Shown one piece after another: positions 136 to 9,299 of a DNA stretch of 41,984 nt. The notes beneath the pieces are model-generated. The model made no database searches. It had not been told where the DNA came from and saw nothing but the letters and a program-made list of their open reading frames with translations. The first letter of the stretch is position 1. Every line of letters starts with the position of its first letter. A program made the translations under genes and the position numbers. Origin of the DNA: a bacterium (GTDB lineage Bacteria > Joyebacterota > Joyebacteria > Joyebacterales > Joyebacteraceae); NCBI GenBank assembly GCA_025774545.1, contig JALGVU010000005.1, forward strand, positions 1-41,984. The letters run 5' to 3'.

Positions 136-1182
136 CTAGACGAGTTCCAGAGGGCGGTCTCCCTTCGGCGCGACGCGCCCCATGACGCGGGCCCCGCGCC
201 CACCGCGGGCACCGAACTCCCGTTCGAACGTGGCGAGCCGCTCCTCGTCGAGGGCGATCAGGAGCCCGCCCGACGTCTGCGGATCGTACACCAGATCGAC
301 CGACCGACCGGCGGCCCCCGATCGGTCGTTCGTGAGCGTCCCGTAGAACTGCTGGTTCGTGAAGAGCCCGCCCGGCGAGATCCCGGCCTCGAGCGTATCG
401 AGGGCCCCGTCGAGGAGCGGGATCTTGCTGAGCTCGAGCGAGAGCGTCACGCCGCTCGCCTCGGCCATCTCGATGGCGTGCCCCGCGAGCCCGAAGCCGG
501 TCACGTCGGTCGCGGCCCGTGCTCCGGCCGCGACCATCGCCTCGGACGCGGCCCGGTTCAGCGCGCTCATGATGTCGGTGATCTCGCGGAGCTTCGAGGC
601 CTTGAGCCTCTCGAGCTTGAGGGCGGTCGCGAGAACGCCCGTGCCGAGCGGCTTCGTCAGCACGAGGATCTGTCCCGGCCGCGCGCCGGCGTTCGACACG
701 ACGTTTGCGGGATCGATCGTGCCGATCACCGCGCAGCCGAACTTCAGCTCTCGATCGCTCACGGAGTGCCCGCCGATGACGATGACGCCCGCCTCGGACA
801 TCTTCTCCTGCGACCCGATCAGAATGTCGGCCATGACGCTCATCGGGAGCTCGCCGTCCGGGAAGCACATGATGTTCAGGGCCACGAACGGGCGTCCGCC
901 CATCGCGTAGATGTCGGAGACCGCGTTCGCGGCGGCGATCCTCCCGAAATCCGCCGGATCGTCCACGATCGGTGTGAAGAAGTCGACGGTGAGCACGAGG
1001 GCCGACCCGTCGTCCAGAAGATAGACCCCGGCGTCGTCCACCGTGTTCGACGACACGAGCACGCGTGGATCAGCCAAGGGCGGCAGCTTGTCGAGCACGG
1101 CGCGCAGGTCCTCCGGACCCAGCTTCGACGCTCAGCCCGAGCACTCCACCATCTGCGTCAGCTTCGGGATGTCCCCGGTCAC
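136..1182 (-). CDS. selD: Selenide, water dikinase, itself a selenoprotein (in-frame UGA at codon 17)
   Basis: SelD makes monoselenophosphate, the selenium donor for Sec-tRNA and for selenouridine, from selenide and ATP. An ATG-started frame at 1098 lacks the active-site end. Upstream, the same frame runs through a TGA at 1134-1132 into VTGDIPKLTQMVECSG, giving the active-site motif ECSG-U-ASK. With the GTG start at 1182 (GGAG about 8 bases upstream), Sec falls at residue 17 and the essential Lys at residue 20, the same numbers as Cys17 and Lys20 in E. coli SelD. The total of 348 aa also matches the family. Further family features are the DFFTP, GGHSV, DVTGFGL and DPQTSGG segments. The gene starts 21 bases after glmS and is followed by tRNA-Sec. 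Standard gene callers will stop at the UGA and report a truncated protein. Confidence 0.95.
1107..1134 (-). promoter_or_regulatory. Recoded UGA and candidate bacterial SECIS hairpin in selD
   Basis: The UGA is at 1134-1132. Downstream, GGTCC (1119-1115) can pair with GGACC (1111-1107) around the apical loop GGA (1114-1112). The apical G lies 17 bases past the UGA, inside the spacing known for bacterial SECIS elements, whose small apical loop usually presents a G to SelB. The pairing is seen directly; SelB recognition is inferred. The stem may extend by two wobble pairs at its base. Confidence 0.7.
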
Positions 1183-1203
1183 GATCAGTTCTCCGCTCTT
1201 TGT

Positions 1204-3033
1204 CTACTCGACGGTGACACTCTTCGCGAGGTTCCGCGGCTGATCGACGTGACACCCGCGCTTCACCGCGATGTGATACGCCAGGAGCTGCAGCGGAACC
1301 ACGGACAGGATCGGCGTCAGGTGCGGGAGCGTTCGGGGGATCTCGATGACGTCGTCCGCCATCTTCTCAACCTGATCGTCACCCTCGGAGGTGATGGCGA
1401 TGATGCGCCCGCCGCGGGCCTTCACCTCCTGCATGTTCGAGAGGATCTTCTCGTAGAAGGCGTCCTGGGGAGCGATCACGACCACCGGCATGCGCTCGTC
1501 GATGAGCGCGATCGGGCCGTGCTTCATCTCTGCGGCGGGATAGCCCTCGGCGTGGATGTACGAGATCTCCTTCAGCTTCAGCGCTCCCTCGAGCGCTACC
1601 GGGAAGTTGTACCCGCGCCCGAGGTAGAGGAAGTTCGTGTCCTTGGCGTAGCGCGACGCGATCTCCCTGATGCTCTCGTGACGGCCCAGGATCTCCGCGA
1701 TCTGGCCGGGGATGGCCTCCATCGCCCTCACGATCTGCCTGCCGCGCGTCACCGAGATGTCGTGGCTCCTCCCCAGCATCAGGGCGACGGCCGCCAGCAC
1801 CATGAGCTGCGACGTGAACGCCTTCGTCGAGGCGACGCCGATCTCGAGCCCGGCGTGCGTGTAGACGCCGCCGTCGCTCTGCCGTGCGATCGTCGACCCG
1901 ACGACGTTGACGATTCCGAGGGCCACGGCGCCCCTGCGCTGCGCCTCCGCCATCGCGGCCAGCGTGTCGATCGTCTCGCCAGACTGGCTGATGACGATGG
2001 CGATGTCCCCGGGGTTGATCACGGGGTTCCGGTAGCGGAACTCGGAGGCGTACTCGACCTCGACGGAGACGCGGGCAAGGTCCTCGAGCATGTACTCGCC
2101 GATCAGGCCCGCGTGCCACGACGTGCCGCACGCCAGGATGATGATGCGCTCGGACTTCTGGAACGCTCTCCTGTGCTCGCGAAGGCCTCCGAGGATGGCG
2201 TCCCCCGCCGCGGAGATCAGACGTCCCCTCACGGCGTCCATCACCGTGCGCTCCTGCTCGAAGATCTCCTTGAGCATGAAGTGAGGGAATCCGTTCTTCT
2301 CGATCATGTCGATGTTCCACGTGACCTTCTCGACGTTCTTGGTGATGAGCTCGTTCTCGAGGGTGGTGGTCGAGAAGCCGTCCGGCGTGGCGACGACCAT
2401 CTCGAGGTCGTCGAGGTAGACGACGTCGCGCGTGTGCCGCACGAGCGCGGCGACGTCGGAGGCGACGTAATTGGCGTCCTTCCCGATGCCGACCACGAGC
2501 GGGCTCCCGTTCCTGGCGCCGACGAGCTTCTCCGGCTCGTCCGCACAGATGACGGCGATTCCGTAGGCGCCCTGGACGCCGGCGAGCGCGGCGCGAACCG
2601 CCGCCTCGAGGTTGCCCTCGTAGTGCTCCTGGATCAGATGGGCCAGGACCTCCGTGTCGGTCTCGGAGGTGAAGACGTGCCCCTTCGCCTCGAGGGTGCG
2701 TCGGATACTCCGGTAGTTCTCGACGATGCCGTTGTGCACGAGGGCGATCCGTCCGGAGCCGTCCAGGTGGGGATGGGCGTTCTGCTCGGACGGCTCTCCG
2801 TGGGTCGCCCATCGCGTGTGGGCGATGCCGGTGGGACCCGAGATAGGACGCTCATCGATGAGCGCCTGGAGTCGGTCGATCTTCCCCTCGGCCTTGCGAA
2901 TGTCGAGCCCGTCGCCGTCGACCACGGCGATGCCCGCCGAATCGTACCCGCGGTACTCCACACGCCGGAGCCCCTCAAGGAGGATCGGCACCGTGTCCCT
3001 GTCGCGCGTCACACACCCGATTATCCCGCACAT
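1204..3033 (-). CDS. glmS: Glutamine--fructose-6-phosphate aminotransferase (isomerizing)
   Basis: GlmS converts fructose-6-phosphate and glutamine to glucosamine-6-phosphate, the first step towards UDP-GlcNAc for peptidoglycan and LPS. I start it at the ATG at 3033 rather than at longer in-frame options, because the product then begins MCGIIG, which places the catalytic N-terminal Cys right after Met; GGGGGGAG lies about 8 bases upstream. The N-terminal glutaminase domain (about 1-240) carries GYDSAGIAV. Two SIS sugar-isomerase domains follow, with ACGTSWHAG, SQSGETIDTL, VASTKAF and AEMKHGPIALID, and the C-terminus ends LAKSVTVE as in the family. At 609 aa it is full length. It overlaps glmM by 13 bases, so two successive amino-sugar steps are translationally coupled. 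No glmS ribozyme is visible upstream, since that space is glmM coding. Confidence 0.97.
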   Translation of the reverse strand: MCGIIGCVTRDRDTVPILLEGLRRVEYRGYDSAGIAVVDGDGLDIRKAEGKIDRLQALIDERPISGPTGIAHTRWATHGEPSEQNAHPHLDGSGRIALVHNGIVENYRSIRRTLEAKGHVFTSETDTEVLAHLIQEHYEGNLEAAVRAALAGVQGAYGIAVICADEPEKLVGARNGSPLVVGIGKDANYVASDVAALVRHTRDVVYLDDLEMVVATPDGFSTTTLENELITKNVEKVTWNIDMIEKNGFPHFMLKEIFEQERTVMDAVRGRLISAAGDAILGGLREHRRAFQKSERIIILACGTSWHAGLIGEYMLEDLARVSVEVEYASEFRYRNPVINPGDIAIVISQSGETIDTLAAMAEAQRRGAVALGIVNVVGSTIARQSDGGVYTHAGLEIGVASTKAFTSQLMVLAAVALMLGRSHDISVTRGRQIVRAMEAIPGQIAEILGRHESIREIASRYAKDTNFLYLGRGYNFPVALEGALKLKEISYIHAEGYPAAEMKHGPIALIDERMPVVVIAPQDAFYEKILSNMQEVKARGGRIIAITSEGDDQVEKMADDVIEIPRTLPHLTPILSVVPLQLLAYHIAVKRGCHVDQPRNLAKSVTVE

Positions 3034-4388
3034 GGTCGATCTCCCCCCGTCCCTCGGGAGACACCCGCGCACGCTCGTTCGGCGAGCGCGTTCGCCGTGT
3101 CCCGATCCGTGGCCTCGGAGATGACCCTGACCACGGGCTCAGTTCCTGACATCCTAACGTGAACCCAGCAATCGGGCCAAGACATCTTTGCACCATCGGT
3201 GAGGTCGAGCTCGCCGTCGGGGAACGTGGCCTTGACTGCATCGATCAGCCGGTCACGCGACGGGTTCTCGAGGACGATCTTCCGCTTCACCATCGCGTAC
3301 GACGCGAAACGTCCCACGAGCTCGCTGGCGCGGGAGCCTCCGCCCGCCGCCAGGCCGGTGATCACGAGGCCCGCCGCTGTCGCGGCGTCCCGCCCGGGAT
3401 GGACCGTCGGAAGGATCACCCCACCGTTCCCCTCACCCCCCACGACGGCCGAGACCTCGTTCATCTTCGTGACGACGTTGATCTCGCCCACGGGACTACG
3501 ATAGACGGGGACGCCCAGCTCCTCGCCCAGGTCATCGATCATACGGCTCGTCGAGACGTTGGCGACGATCGGCCCCTTCTCCCTCATAAGCACAATCCGT
3601 GCCGCGATGGCCAGCGTGTACTCCTCCCCCACGGCAAGGCCCTCTTCGTCCACCATGGCGAGCCGGTCGGCGTCGGGGTCGCACGCGAGGCCGATGTCGG
3701 CTCCCTCGGCGACGACCCGCCTTGAGAGTTCGACCAAATGCTCCGGGATGGGCTCCGCGCCGCGAGGGAAGCCGGCGGACGGGTCGCACCAGAGCTCCAC
3801 GACGTCGCAACCGAGCGCGCGAAGAAGCTGCGGGAGGATGACCGATCCCGCGGCGTTCGTGCAGTCGACCACGACCCTGGGCGCGCGGCGCGCGACGGCC
3901 TCCGCGTCGACGAACCCCGACTCGTGGATGATGGAGAGATGGTCCCGCACCGCTCCCTCGAGATCGACGCCGTCGGGCCCGTCGGGGACGGGCGAAGGGA
4001 GCTTGCCGTCGACGACGCTGAAGAGCGTCGCGATCTCGCTCGCGTCGAGGAAGATCCCGCGCGACGAGAAGAACTTGAGCCCGTTGTACTCCTCGGGGTT
4101 GTGGCTCGCCGTGACCTCGACGCCGCCGGCGAACGCGCGGGTACGGACGGCGATGCCGACGGTCGGCGTCGGAGCAATGCCGAGGTCGTGTGCGCGGACG
4201 CCGCCCGCCTTGAGTCCCGCAGCGACAGCCTGCTTGAGCTCGTCACCCCCGCGCCTCGAGTCCCACCCCAGGGCGACGTCGCCGAGCGCGATGCTGGCGA
4301 ACGCGAGCCCGTACGACCACGCCAGTTCGGGCGTCAGGTCCTCGCCGACGATCCCGCGCACTCCCGACACGCTCCGGATGAGCGTCAT
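3021..4388 (-). CDS. glmM: Phosphoglucosamine mutase (alpha-D-phosphohexomutase family)
   Basis: The protein probably interconverts glucosamine-6-phosphate and glucosamine-1-phosphate, the step after GlmS. It is a 455-aa phosphohexomutase with all four family signatures: the phosphoserine loop TASHNP with Ser95, the metal loop CDPDADR, the sugar loop GEGNGG and the phosphate-binding RMSGTEP near the C-terminus. It begins MTLIRSVSGVRGIVG, typical of the family. Its end overlaps the glmS start by 13 bases, and this pairing is the main argument for GlmM over a phosphomannomutase/phosphoglucomutase. GEGNGG rather than GEQSGH in the sugar loop is seen in some GlmM-like and PMM/PGM-like proteins, so the substrate remains an inference. 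Start ATG at 4388 with GAGGAG upstream. Confidence 0.88.
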   Translation of the reverse strand: MTLIRSVSGVRGIVGEDLTPELAWSYGLAFASIALGDVALGWDSRRGGDELKQAVAAGLKAGGVRAHDLGIAPTPTVGIAVRTRAFAGGVEVTASHNPEEYNGLKFFSSRGIFLDASEIATLFSVVDGKLPSPVPDGPDGVDLEGAVRDHLSIIHESGFVDAEAVARRAPRVVVDCTNAAGSVILPQLLRALGCDVVELWCDPSAGFPRGAEPIPEHLVELSRRVVAEGADIGLACDPDADRLAMVDEEGLAVGEEYTLAIAARIVLMREKGPIVANVSTSRMIDDLGEELGVPVYRSPVGEINVVTKMNEVSAVVGGEGNGGVILPTVHPGRDAATAAGLVITGLAAGGGSRASELVGRFASYAMVKRKIVLENPSRDRLIDAVKATFPDGELDLTDGAKMSWPDCWVHVRMSGTEPVVRVISEATDRDTANALAERACAGVSRGTGGDRPCAG

Positions 4389-6964
4389 GCCGCCGGTCTC
4401 CTCTCGGGCTCAGGGCTCAACTGGGTCCGCGTCCGCGGGCTCGGAGGTCTGTGGTTCGGCGTCCTCGAGTGAGGTCGATTCGGGCGACTCCGCGGGCGCG
4501 CTCTCGGGAGGCGCGTCGGCAGCGGGCTCGGGCGATTCCGCGGGCGCGCTCTCGGGCAGCGTCTCGTCTGAGGCGGGCTCGGGCAACTCCGTGGGCTCGC
4601 TCTCGGGCGGCGTCTCGTCTGAGGCGGGCTCGGGCAACTCCGTGGGCTCGCTCTCGGGCGGCGTCTCATCGGCGGCGGGCCGGGCGACTCCGCGGGCGCG
4701 CTCTCGGGAGGCGTCTCATCGGCGGCGGGCTCGGGCGATTCCGTGGGCGCGCTCTCGGGCGGCGCGTCGACGGCGGGCTCGGGCGATTCCGCGGGCGCGC
4801 TCTCGGACGGCGTTTCGTCTGAGGCGGGCTCGGGTGACTCCGCGGGCGCGCTCTCGGATGCCGCCGCGTCCGCGGTCGGTTCGGGCGCGGGCGGCCCCAC
4901 GAGTTCCACCGGCTCGGGTTCCACCCGCTCTGGCTCCATCCACTCGGCGCCGTGCGTCTCGAGCGCGGTGCGCGCGGCGTCCGCCTGCTCCGTCTCGGGG
5001 AAGTCCCATATCACCGCGCGGTACGCATCGAGCGCGGCGTCGACGTCCCCGCGCCTCGTCTCGAGGATCCACGCGACGGCGAGCGCCGCCCGCGGCGCGT
5101 TTGCGTTCGTCCGGTGCTTCCGCGCGACGATGAGGTACTGCTCGAGGGCCTTGTCGTCCTTCTCCATGGCGAAGAGATAGAGCTCCGCGAGCCCGAAGCG
5201 CGCCTCGGCGACGGCGTCCTCGCTGCCGCCCTCGGTGTCGCGGCCCGCGGCATCCCAGGAGACGGGGCGCTCGCCCTCCGGAACGCTGGGCGCGGTGCCG
5301 GGGAGTTGCGAGAGGAACTGCTGGGCGCCGAGCGAGTCGGCTTGGGCTCCCGCGCGACGCCTCTCCAGGAGCGCCTCGCGCATCGCGCGCCGGGCCTCCA
5401 CCGCCTCGCGGCCCAGCTCGTCGGTGCGCCCACCCTCTTCGCGAGCCGTTCCCGGCAGGCGGTCGGCGCCGGGAGGGAGTCCGAGGTCTCGACGAGGTCC
5501 ACCCGCCCGAGTCGTGTCCGCCCCGACCTCGGTGGCCCAGTCCGCGGACTCCCCGACCTTCGCCGTCGAATCCGCCGCTGCCGCCACGTTCCGGTCCGGC
5601 CGCTCCGGCCCGCTCGCGGTCGAATCCGACGCAGACTCGGCACCGGCGACGGGGGTGCCTCCCTCGCTCGCCGTCGAGTCCGCAGCGGCCCCGGCGCCCG
5701 GCGCGGACGTATCGCTCGGCGCTGGTTCGCCCGGCGCGGACGTGTCGCTCGGCGCTGGTTCGCCCGGCGCGGACGTGTCGCTCGGCGCTGGTTCGCCCGA
5801 CGCGGACGTGTCGCTCGGCGCTGGTTCGCCCGACGCGTCGTCCGCGGCCTCCTGCGCCGGCGCGGCCGCAAGACGGGCCTCATGCTCCTCGATTACCTCG
5901 ACGTAGCGCCTCAGCGTCTCGATGTCCTTCGCCGCCTCGGCCGCGAGCTTCCCCGCGTCGCTTCTCGGCGCTTCGTCGCGCGACTTCGAGAAGGACTCGG
6001 TGGCATCGTCGAGCGACTCGTGGTGGTCGCGATGAATGAGACCGATCCGATAGTGCGCCTCGGCCGACGCCTCCGAGCGCTCGTGCGACGCGGCGACTCC
6101 CTCGTACGTCGAGATTGCCTCGTCGAAATCGCCGACGACCTCGTACAGGCGCCCCTTGAGAAGCAGAATCCGGTCGAGATCGTCCCTCTCGACGGTCCTC
6201 CGCTCGAGATCGTCGAGAACGCCGAAGGCCTCGTCGGTCCGGCCCGCGTCCATCACGACCTCCGCGAGCCGGATTCTCGCCTCGAAGAGCAGCGTCCGCG
6301 CTCCCCGCTCGTCGGCGGCCGCAGCGAAGTGGGTCGCCGCCTTCTCAACCTTGCCGGCCTCGTAGTGGTTCTCGGCCGCGAGGAAGTGGATCTCCGCGCG
6401 GCGATCGCTTCTCGGGAAGCGCTCGAGAGCTTCGTCGTACGCCGCCGCGGCCTCCGCGTAGAGCTTGCGGGCGTTGCGCGCCTCGCCGATCAGCACGAGG
6501 GCGTCGTCCGAGAAGGGGCTCGGCGGGTCGGAGTGCGCAACCTCTTCGAGGAGCGACTCCGCGGACACGGGGTTCCCCTTGGCGAGCATCACGGCGGCGA
6601 GCGTGTACTCCGCCTCGGACCGAAGCTCGCTGTCCTGGTATGTCGTGAGGAACTCGGAGAGCCGCGACTCAGCGCTCTCGTACTTGCCCTGATGATACAG
6701 CGCGGTCCCCATGAGAAGGAGGGCGTCGTCGGCCCAGCCCGAATCGGGATGCTGGCGAAGAACCCGGCCGCTCTTCTGTACGACGCGATCGAGGAGTTCC
6801 TTCTCGCGCGACGTCGGATCGGAATCGGGCGGCCGCGCGACTCTCAGCTCCTCCGCCTCGCGCGCGGCGGTCCGCGCGTGGTAGAACGTGTTGTAGTACA
6901 CGCACCCGGGGGCCGCGAGAAGCCCGATGAGAAGAAGGAAGACGACTGAGGTCCTGGTCAACAC
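4385..6964 (-). CDS. Outer-membrane TPR lipoprotein with acidic repeat tail; probable frame break near 4680
   Basis: I start it at GTG 6964 because the product then opens with a lipoprotein signal (FLLLIGLLAAPGC, lipobox Cys about residue 21) and GAGGAGG lies 10 bases upstream; the open frame extends further upstream only as a shadow of pyrR. After CVYYNTFYHA the protein is a run of TPR-like helical repeats to about residue 360, then four 11-residue GEPAPSDTSAP repeats, a Ser/Asp/Thr-rich linker, a second TPR-like stretch (FGLAELYLFAMEK onward) and a Pro/Glu-rich repeat tail. CxYYNTFYHA followed by TPRs resembles periplasmic tetratricopeptide lipoproteins; no enzyme motif is seen. The tail repeat (SPEPAADETPPESAPAE) breaks at 4680/4681, where one base is missing relative to sister copies. 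The repeat continues in another frame and would end at 4410 (ADADPVEP). As written, the frame ends at 4385, overlapping glmM by ATGA. Confidence 0.75.
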   Translation of the reverse strand: MLTRTSVVFLLLIGLLAAPGCVYYNTFYHARTAAREAEELRVARPPDSDPTSREKELLDRVVQKSGRVLRQHPDSGWADDALLLMGTALYHQGKYESAESRLSEFLTTYQDSELRSEAEYTLAAVMLAKGNPVSAESLLEEVAHSDPPSPFSDDALVLIGEARNARKLYAEAAAAYDEALERFPRSDRRAEIHFLAAENHYEAGKVEKAATHFAAAADERGARTLLFEARIRLAEVVMDAGRTDEAFGVLDDLERRTVERDDLDRILLLKGRLYEVVGDFDEAISTYEGVAASHERSEASAEAHYRIGLIHRDHHESLDDATESFSKSRDEAPRSDAGKLAAEAAKDIETLRRYVEVIEEHEARLAAAPAQEAADDASGEPAPSDTSASGEPAPSDTSAPGEPAPSDTSAPGEPAPSDTSAPGAGAAADSTASEGGTPVAGAESASDSTASGPERPDRNVAAAADSTAKVGESADWATEVGADTTRAGGPRRDLGLPPGADRLPGTAREEGGRTDELGREAVEARRAMREALLERRRAGAQADSLGAQQFLSQLPGTAPSVPEGERPVSWDAAGRDTEGGSEDAVAEARFGLAELYLFAMEKDDKALEQYLIVARKHRTNANAPRAALAVAWILETRRGDVDAALDAYRAVIWDFPETEQADAARTALETHGAEWMEPERVEPEPVELVGPPAPEPTADAAASESAPAESPEPASDETPSESAPAESPEPAVDAPPESAPTESPEPAADETPPESAPAESPGPPPMRRRPRASPRSCPSPPQTRRRPRASPRSCPSPPQTRRCPRARPRNRPSPLPTRLPRARPRSRPNRPHSRTPNHRPPSPRTRTQLSPEPERRPAA
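4464..4872 (-). repeat. Imperfect 42-51-bp Pro/Glu repeat array at the 3' end of the TPR lipoprotein gene
   Basis: About nine imperfect copies of a unit coding roughly SAPAESPEPAADETPPE are visible. On the plus strand they share cores such as gcgggctcgggcga and gcgctctcgggcgg. Proteins with such tails often span the periplasm or act as flexible linkers, but here that is only an inference. A one-base loss relative to the other copies at 4680/4681 shifts the frame inside the array. Confidence 0.8.
5700..5831 (-). repeat. Four tandem 33-bp coding repeats in the TPR lipoprotein
   Basis: Four consecutive 33-bp units start at 5700, 5733, 5766 and 5799. Each encodes the 11-residue unit GEPAPSDTSAP or a one-residue variant (S for P). 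The copies differ by only a few bases, which suggests recent amplification. The unit length is a multiple of three, so gain or loss of a copy keeps the frame. The segment links the two TPR-like parts of the lipoprotein. Confidence 0.9.
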
Positions 6965-7029
6965 CGGCGTGGTGCCTCCTCGGTGGAGCCGCGCGCAGGA
7001 CGCGATGGTCCGAAGATCGACCGACGGTC

Positions 7030-7638
<609 letters not shown>

Positions 7639-7644
7639 CTACCA

Positions 7645-8466
7645 TCAGGCGTCCGGCTCTGCAAGCGGCGCCCCGAGGAGGCGCCCCACGACGCGGGCCC
7701 TGTCGGGCGCGACGCGCGCGAGCCGGCTCACGAGCGCGTAGCGTGGGGGCGCTTCGAGCCCGAGCCCCTCGAGGAGGCCCGCATCGCCGAAGATCTCCGA
7801 CGTCTCTCCGTCCGCCACCACAGACCCTGCGTCGAGCACGACGGTCCGCGACGCGACGCGCTCAGCCAGCTCGAGATCGTGCGTCACCACGACGACCCCG
7901 CGCCCGCGCTCGATCTCGCTCACGATGAGATCCACGATCCTCTGCTTGATCAGGGGATCGAGCCCCGCGCTCGGCTCGTCGAGCAGCAGGAACGGACGGT
8001 CGAGGGCGAGAATGCACGCGATGGCGGCCCGCCGCTTTTCCCCGGCCGACAGTGAGAGCGGCGCCCTCCCCGCGAACTCATCGGGAGGAAGACCGACCCT
8101 CGTCAGGGCGTCGCGCACGCGGGACGCGACCGCCTCGGGCGCGAGTCCCTGCCGCTTCGGCCCGAACGCGACGTCCTCACGAACGGTCTCCTCGAAGAAC
8201 TGCGCCTCCGGGAACTGGTGCACGAGACCGACGCTGCCTCGGAGCGTCGAGCCGTCCCGCGCTCGCGCGATCACCGCCCGGCCTTCGGTCGGGTCGGTGA
8301 GACCGGCCATCACCTCGAGGAGCGTCGTCTTTCCTGAACCCGTCGGGCCGACGACGGCCACGGACTCCCCCGCCTCGACGGCGAGATCGACCCCCGCGAG
8401 CGCCAACAGCGAGGCGGGTAGCGCGGCCTCGTGACGAACAGCGACCGACGAAAGCTCGATGATCAT
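7645..8466 (-). CDS. ecfA2: ECF-type ABC transporter ATPase (EcfA2-like)
   Basis: This is an ATPase of the CbiO/EcfA type, which in energy-coupling-factor transporters powers uptake of vitamins or metals together with EcfT and a substrate-binding S protein. The 273-aa protein has Walker A GPTGSGKTT, the Q-loop region HQFPEAQFFEETV (characteristic of EcfA2), signature LSAGEKRR, Walker B FLLLDEPSAGLD and the H-loop VVTHD. The start is ATG 8466 (MIIELSSV), which shares ATGA with the end of ecfA1; longer in-frame starts fall inside ecfA1. No EcfT or S gene lies nearby in this window, so the substrate is unknown. Confidence 0.9.
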   Translation of the reverse strand: MIIELSSVAVRHEAALPASLLALAGVDLAVEAGESVAVVGPTGSGKTTLLEVMAGLTDPTEGRAVIARARDGSTLRGSVGLVHQFPEAQFFEETVREDVAFGPKRQGLAPEAVASRVRDALTRVGLPPDEFAGRAPLSLSAGEKRRAAIACILALDRPFLLLDEPSAGLDPLIKQRIVDLIVSEIERGRGVVVVTHDLELAERVASRTVVLDAGSVVADGETSEIFGDAGLLEGLGLEAPPRYALVSRLARVAPDRARVVGRLLGAPLAEPDA

Positions 8467-9299
8467 GAGAGGCTCCCGGCTGGCGCCGCAACGATCGCGT
8501 CGACAAGCTCGTCGAGGGTGATCGCCACACCGGGCAATCCGAGCCCGGCTCGCCTCAACCGATCCGAGAGCACCATGGCGGACGGCAGTGTGAGTCCCCA
8601 CTCCGACAGCCGCTCGGCCCGCGAGAAGAGCTCCACGGGCGAGCCGTCGAAGACAACGCGGCCTCGATCGAGGACGATCGCCCGAGTCGAGAGGCCGATC
8701 TCGTCGGGGAACTGCGTCACGTGAACCACGGTCCGCGATTCGTCGCGCCCGAGCTCGCCCAGGATCTCCCAGACCTCCCGGCGCCCCCTCGCATCGAGGA
8801 GCGACGTCGGCTCGTCGAGCGCGAGGCACACCGGACGCATCGCGAGCACGGCGGCGATCGCGACCCGCTGTTTCTCACCGCCGGAGAGGCGGTGCGGCGC
8901 TCTCTCCCTCAGATGCTCGAGGTTCAGGCGGACGAGCACGGCGGCGATGCGTCGCCCGATCTCGGCGGAGGGGAGCCCCAAGTTCTCCATGCCGAACGCG
9001 AGCTCCCGCTCGACGGTCGTGCTCACGAGCTGATTGTCTGGGTTCTGGAAGATGAGGCCCACGCGGCGGCGGACCTCCCAGAGGTTCACGGGGTCGCCCG
9101 TGTCGAGCCCGTCGACGGTGACGCGCCCGTCCGTCGGCAGGAGCAGCGCGTTCAGGAGCCTGAGGAAGGTCGTCTTCCCCGAGCCGCTCGCCCCCACCAG
9201 AGCGACCGCCTCACCGTCCGCGATCGACAGGTCGATTTCGCCCAGCGCGGGGCGCGCCGCTTCCTCGTAGGTGAAACTCACGTTCGTGAATTCGATCAA
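8463..9299 (-). CDS. ecfA1: ECF-type ABC transporter ATPase (EcfA1-like)
   Basis: Partner ATPase to the next gene; EcfA1 and EcfA2 normally form a heterodimer on the membrane protein EcfT. The 278-aa product has Walker A GASGSGKTT, the EcfA1 Q-loop FQNPDNQLV, signature LSGGEKQR and Walker B CLALDEPTSLLD. The switch region reads VVHVTQF, with Gln where most ATPases have Asp/His. That is worth noting because the switch His (usually THD) is missing: THV/QF replaces TH-D/E, so this site may be catalytically weak. I start it at TTG 9299, giving LIEFTNVSFTYEE with GCGGGG upstream; the frame further 5' overlaps the lipoprotein gene. It begins 13 bases after that gene ends. Confidence 0.9.
   Translation of the reverse strand: MIEFTNVSFTYEEAARPALGEIDLSIADGEAVALVGASGSGKTTFLRLLNALLLPTDGRVTVDGLDTGDPVNLWEVRRRVGLIFQNPDNQLVSTTVERELAFGMENLGLPSAEIGRRIAAVLVRLNLEHLRERAPHRLSGGEKQRVAIAAVLAMRPVCLALDEPTSLLDARGRREVWEILGELGRDESRTVVHVTQFPDEIGLSTRAIVLDRGRVVFDGSPVELFSRAERLSEWGLTLPSAMVLSDRLRRAGLGLPGVAITLDELVDAIVAAPAGSLS

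Follow-up and report, generated by a model that had tools for sequence, protein, structure and literature searches.

A selenoprotein-type selD gene with a conserved in-frame UGA at the catalytic codon in a little-known bacterial group

The window considered here, the whole 41,984-nt stretch of DNA that was analysed, carries near its start a gene for selenophosphate synthetase (selD) whose reading frame is interrupted by a UGA codon. Whether this codon specifies selenocysteine (Sec), ends a short peptide or reflects a fault in the sequence determines both how the gene should be annotated and how its product could be made. The evidence argues, with a probability of about 97%, that selD is an ordinary selenoprotein-type gene whose UGA (1134-1132, minus strand) would be decoded by the ribosome as Sec, aided by SelB, Sec-tRNA(Sec) and a hairpin that follows shortly 3' of the codon. 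Sec17 and Lys20 would then lie on a mobile loop at the N-terminal end of the enzyme and take part in its synthesis of selenophosphate from selenide and ATP, and selenophosphate would be the selenium donor for SelA in making Sec-tRNA(Sec). Because selenophosphate feeds Sec-tRNA(Sec), the product of SelD would support its own translation as well as that of other selenoproteins. Sec insertion itself, the enzymatic activity of SelD and feedback on its own synthesis would be expected from the sequence.

The selD reading frame and its catalytic position

The gene runs from GTG 1182 to TAG 136 on the minus strand, with the single in-frame UGA at codon 17 (1132-1134) and a possible Shine-Dalgarno sequence, GGAG (1191-1194, minus strand), 8 nt 5' of the start. 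Translation with TGA as U gives 348 residues beginning VTGDIPKLTQMVECSGUASKLGPEDL, and the product matches the TIGR00476 selD profile with 368 bits against a cut-off of 125, over model positions 1-309 of 311. phmmer aligns its U with the catalytic Cys, and its K with the Lys, of the structures 3u0o and 2yye. Both residues of the catalytic loop, U17 and K20 (AAG, 1123-1125, minus strand), are thus present. This agrees with the first-pass annotation, which had started the gene at GTG 1182, placed Sec at residue 17 and Lys at residue 20, and equated them with the catalytic Cys17 and Lys20 of Escherichia coli SelD. It had also warned that an annotation stopping at UGA would lose the active site, as is borne out by the largest selD open reading frame available without readthrough: 320 residues (136-1098, minus strand), the likely call of a standard gene caller, containing neither Sec17 nor Lys20. 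The value of the finding is mainly for annotation, in correcting such a truncated SelD call in a little-known bacterial group.

Comparison with known enzymes places the protein among familiar relatives. SelD of Aquifex aeolicus (PDB 2yye/2zod; TIGR00476, motif UxxK), which naturally contains Sec, belongs to the same family and shares the catalytic position and its S-G-[U/C]-A-x-K context; 2yye reads SGCAAKVGP at the Sec site of the window's SelD. The E. coli enzyme (3u0o), alignable over 311 residues, reads GAGCGCKISP there, with Cys in place of Sec at 17 and a second Cys at 19, where the window's SelD has Ser19. At the level of sequence, nothing but its host lineage and its glmS-selD-tRNASec arrangement sets the window's gene apart from Sec-containing SelD/SPS2. 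One survey counted Sec forms as 19% of the SelD genes of prokaryotes, with Sec at the catalytic position in every case (PMC4561486). The Sec-SelD described here is a further, well-supported example of a long-known selenoprotein, and the earlier remark that the type was already known from other lineages holds.

Gene neighborhood and Sec machinery

Directly 5' of selD lies glmS (1204-3072, minus strand), with a glmM-like gene beyond it upstream; directly 3' lies a tRNA-Sec gene (selC) with a UCA anticodon, truncated by the contig end (1-93, minus strand). A complete copy of this tRNA-Sec gene occurs at the end of another contig of the same genome (G000; contig C143, 57619-57713). Positions 1-114 of the window (contig C390) equal C143 57621-57734, an overlap of 114 identical bases, so that the two contigs are very likely neighbors in the genome; these shared bases also led to rejection of two tRNA-Sec genes in G000 in favor of one locus at a contig break. 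The other genes of the Sec-decoding trait are likewise present in G000: selA on C86 (528 bits, SelA domains) and, on C47, a full-length selB that encodes a GTPase, a beta-barrel and two C-terminal winged-helix domains. A second, short SelB candidate on C367 is most likely EF-Tu, since its weak match at 1-264 recurs throughout the phylum as well as in control genomes that have no selB.

The glmS-selD-tRNASec cluster is kept in all 19 genomes of the phylum in which selD was found, with the anticodon loop 42-167 nt past the selD stop, and tRNA-Sec is present in these same 19 genomes. A second tRNA-Sec-like match in one of them (G012) was set aside, as it has a TAA anticodon and resembles tRNA-Leu. 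The linkage is a convenient sign by which Sec use can be recognized in the phylum.

Conservation of the UGA among relatives

When selD was sought in 20 genomes of the phylum, representing eight genera of one family, homologues were found in 19, each with a single internal TGA at the exact homologous codon. The pairwise protein identity among these is 55-94% (median 62%). The remaining genome, G013, which is 78% complete, gave no selD match.

The alternative that survives best, itself quite improbable, is that translation starts past the UGA at GTG 1098, yielding a truncated SelD-like protein with some other role, with the UGA simply closing a short upstream peptide. The 320-residue frame is available for this, and AIR-synthase-type relatives that have no such loop exist. 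It is opposed by conservation at the protein level on both sides of the UGA in the 19 genomes (KLTQ.V.CSG-U-ASKLGPEDL), which takes in the codons 5' of the UGA and an invariant Lys20. Moreover, G000 would be left with no other SelD despite having selA, selB and tRNA-Sec. A genome-wide profile search of this assembly, which is 96% complete, found no second SelD above the cut-off, and the weaker matches to the SelD profile are, by score, related AIR-synthase-type proteins; the second, Cys-containing selD whose presence the first-pass annotation had seen as a threat to its reading is thus absent at that level.

Far less credible still is that the UGA stems from faulty sequencing or assembly, or that the gene has decayed: the genome is indeed a draft of 512 contigs in which an FlpD gene carries a small frameshifting deletion, but the TGA is common to 19 genomes, and is therefore neither error nor decay, and the rest of the selD frame is intact and conserved. 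The possibility, raised earlier, that resequencing might reveal a sense codon also finds no encouragement in the separately deposited contig JALGWI010000110.1, which has 99.3% DNA identity to the window and an identical UGA.

One genome of another genus, G001, contains a 4622-base contig (C97; locus L026) with 99% DNA identity to the window in addition to its own selD. This apparent second TGA-containing selD of G001 most probably reflects misbinning of a contig that belongs to a relative of G000; the selD on C30 of G001 groups with its own genus.

The hairpin downstream of the UGA

A putative bSECIS apical hairpin, GGUCC-GGA-GGACC (1107-1119, minus strand), begins 12 nt 3' of the UGA. With at least 5 bp and its GGA loop at 17 nt past the UGA, it falls inside the published limits, which require a distance of 16-37 nt from the UGA, a loop of 3-9 nt and a G in its first two bases (PMC13188914). 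The position and spacing of the GGA-loop hairpin in the first-pass annotation are thereby upheld, but the fold does not serve as proof on its own: 187 of the 934 TGAs in the window, which is 68% GC, pass the same bSECIS model (20%), as do 41% of synonymously recoded versions of the sequence for the peptide, and the fold z ranges from -1.7 to +1.1 according to the stretch chosen, so that the fold alone is non-significant. The proposed folding check likewise gives a divided answer. With the UGA included in the folded stretch the fold reaches -20.7 kcal/mol. Of 20 homologues, 16 pass a strict bSECIS script with the GGA loop at 17 nt, G017 passes by way of another hairpin, and G000, its near-copy and G018 fail when the UGA is left out of the fold, the failure of G000 being one that relates to this analysis's own implementation of the model.

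A hairpin in one sequence is weak evidence in GC-rich DNA; what convinces is its conservation across genomes. Among the 104 SelD residues with degenerate codons that are invariant across the 19 genomes, 59 are fourfold degenerate, and of these only Gly22 (GGT) and Pro23 (CCG) keep their codon in every genome. These two codons form the 5' arm of the hairpin and the first base of its loop, and GGT is used for only 115 of the 705 Gly codons elsewhere in these selD genes. The Glu24 codon is also invariant, and that of Asp25 changes once (to GAT in G006, C-to-U) with a G-U pair kept. A permutation test, which takes no account of phylogeny, gives p=0.006 for the run of conserved codons. That only Gly22 and Pro23 are fixed among the 59 argues that the apical hairpin has been selected at the RNA level, beyond what the protein demands. 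The outer, lower stem varies between genomes and is not conserved in detail, and there is almost no covariation to indicate pairing, because the apical stem is almost invariant.

Other genes with in-frame UGA codons

The notion that SelD might be the sole selenoprotein of G000 is ruled out by several further genes. Two HdrA genes contain an in-frame UGA (DCSI-U-ILAPKM and DCAI-U-ILGPKM; L111 and L115, on C484 and C404), as does an FlpD/MvhD gene (CCYW-U-AYG; L087 682-1037, on C154). Four thioredoxin-fold AhpC-TSA matches have UGA in a UxxC arrangement (U-GPC, U-PIC, U-MPC and U-PAC; L107, L108, L109 and L110, on C115, C490, C472 and C337), and an AhpC of G010 reads FTFV-U-PTE. The HdrA, FlpD and AhpC-type genes are known selenoprotein families or near them (PMC13188914). 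Among the profile matches listed, none to Fdh-alpha or molybdopterin domains has a TGA inside it that would mark a selenoprotein FdhA.

Although several genes thus hold in-frame UGAs, a genome-wide reassignment of UGA (for example to Trp or Gly) with no involvement of Sec can be given next to no weight, as each such UGA is at a known redox Cys/Sec position in a genome with Sec machinery, and UGA is a normal stop that ends 14 of the 22 long open reading frames of the window, including those of a TPR protein (4385-7645) and an ECF-type ATPase (7645-8829).

Two of the thioredoxin-fold proteins resemble redox domains found at the C-terminus of longer proteins; the other two resemble secreted proteins that end in a C-terminal tail of the sorting type. 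The FlpD/MvhD gene on C154 shows, relative to its relatives, a deletion of some 13 nt that shifts the frame, either an assembly error or the mark of a decaying copy.

Proposed dependence of SelD on its own product

The first-pass annotation had described the supply of SelD as an autocatalytic loop. For G000 as assembled, Sec decoding of selD suggests such self-dependence, in that every SelD molecule would need Sec insertion for its synthesis. Relatives are not all strictly bound by this dependence, since three of them (G006, G007 and G017) carry, beside Sec-SelD, a Cys-type NifS-SelD fusion (L007, L008 and L009; 313-2532 in L007 and L009). The fusion, which was not found in the window's genome, joins aminotransferase class V and SelD domains in about 740 residues (739 in the two measured) and has Cys in its active site (GLGCACK or GMGCACK). 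These proteins form a clade apart from Sec-SelD with 100/100 support, at about 50% identity. Fusions of NifS with SelD have been described before but are rare, with two instances reported (PMC4561486).

Where both forms exist, the Cys-type fusion could in principle start Sec synthesis before any Sec is available. It is a tentative suggestion, somewhat short of an even chance, that some members of the family keep Sec-SelD together with a Sec-independent NifS-SelD as primer or back-up while others, like G000, have a self-dependent SelD alone. The patchy occurrence of the Cys-type fusion provides a natural comparison for how organisms cope with a SelD that needs its own product. A partial, frame-broken NifS-SelD copy is present in a further genome, G011 (L029).
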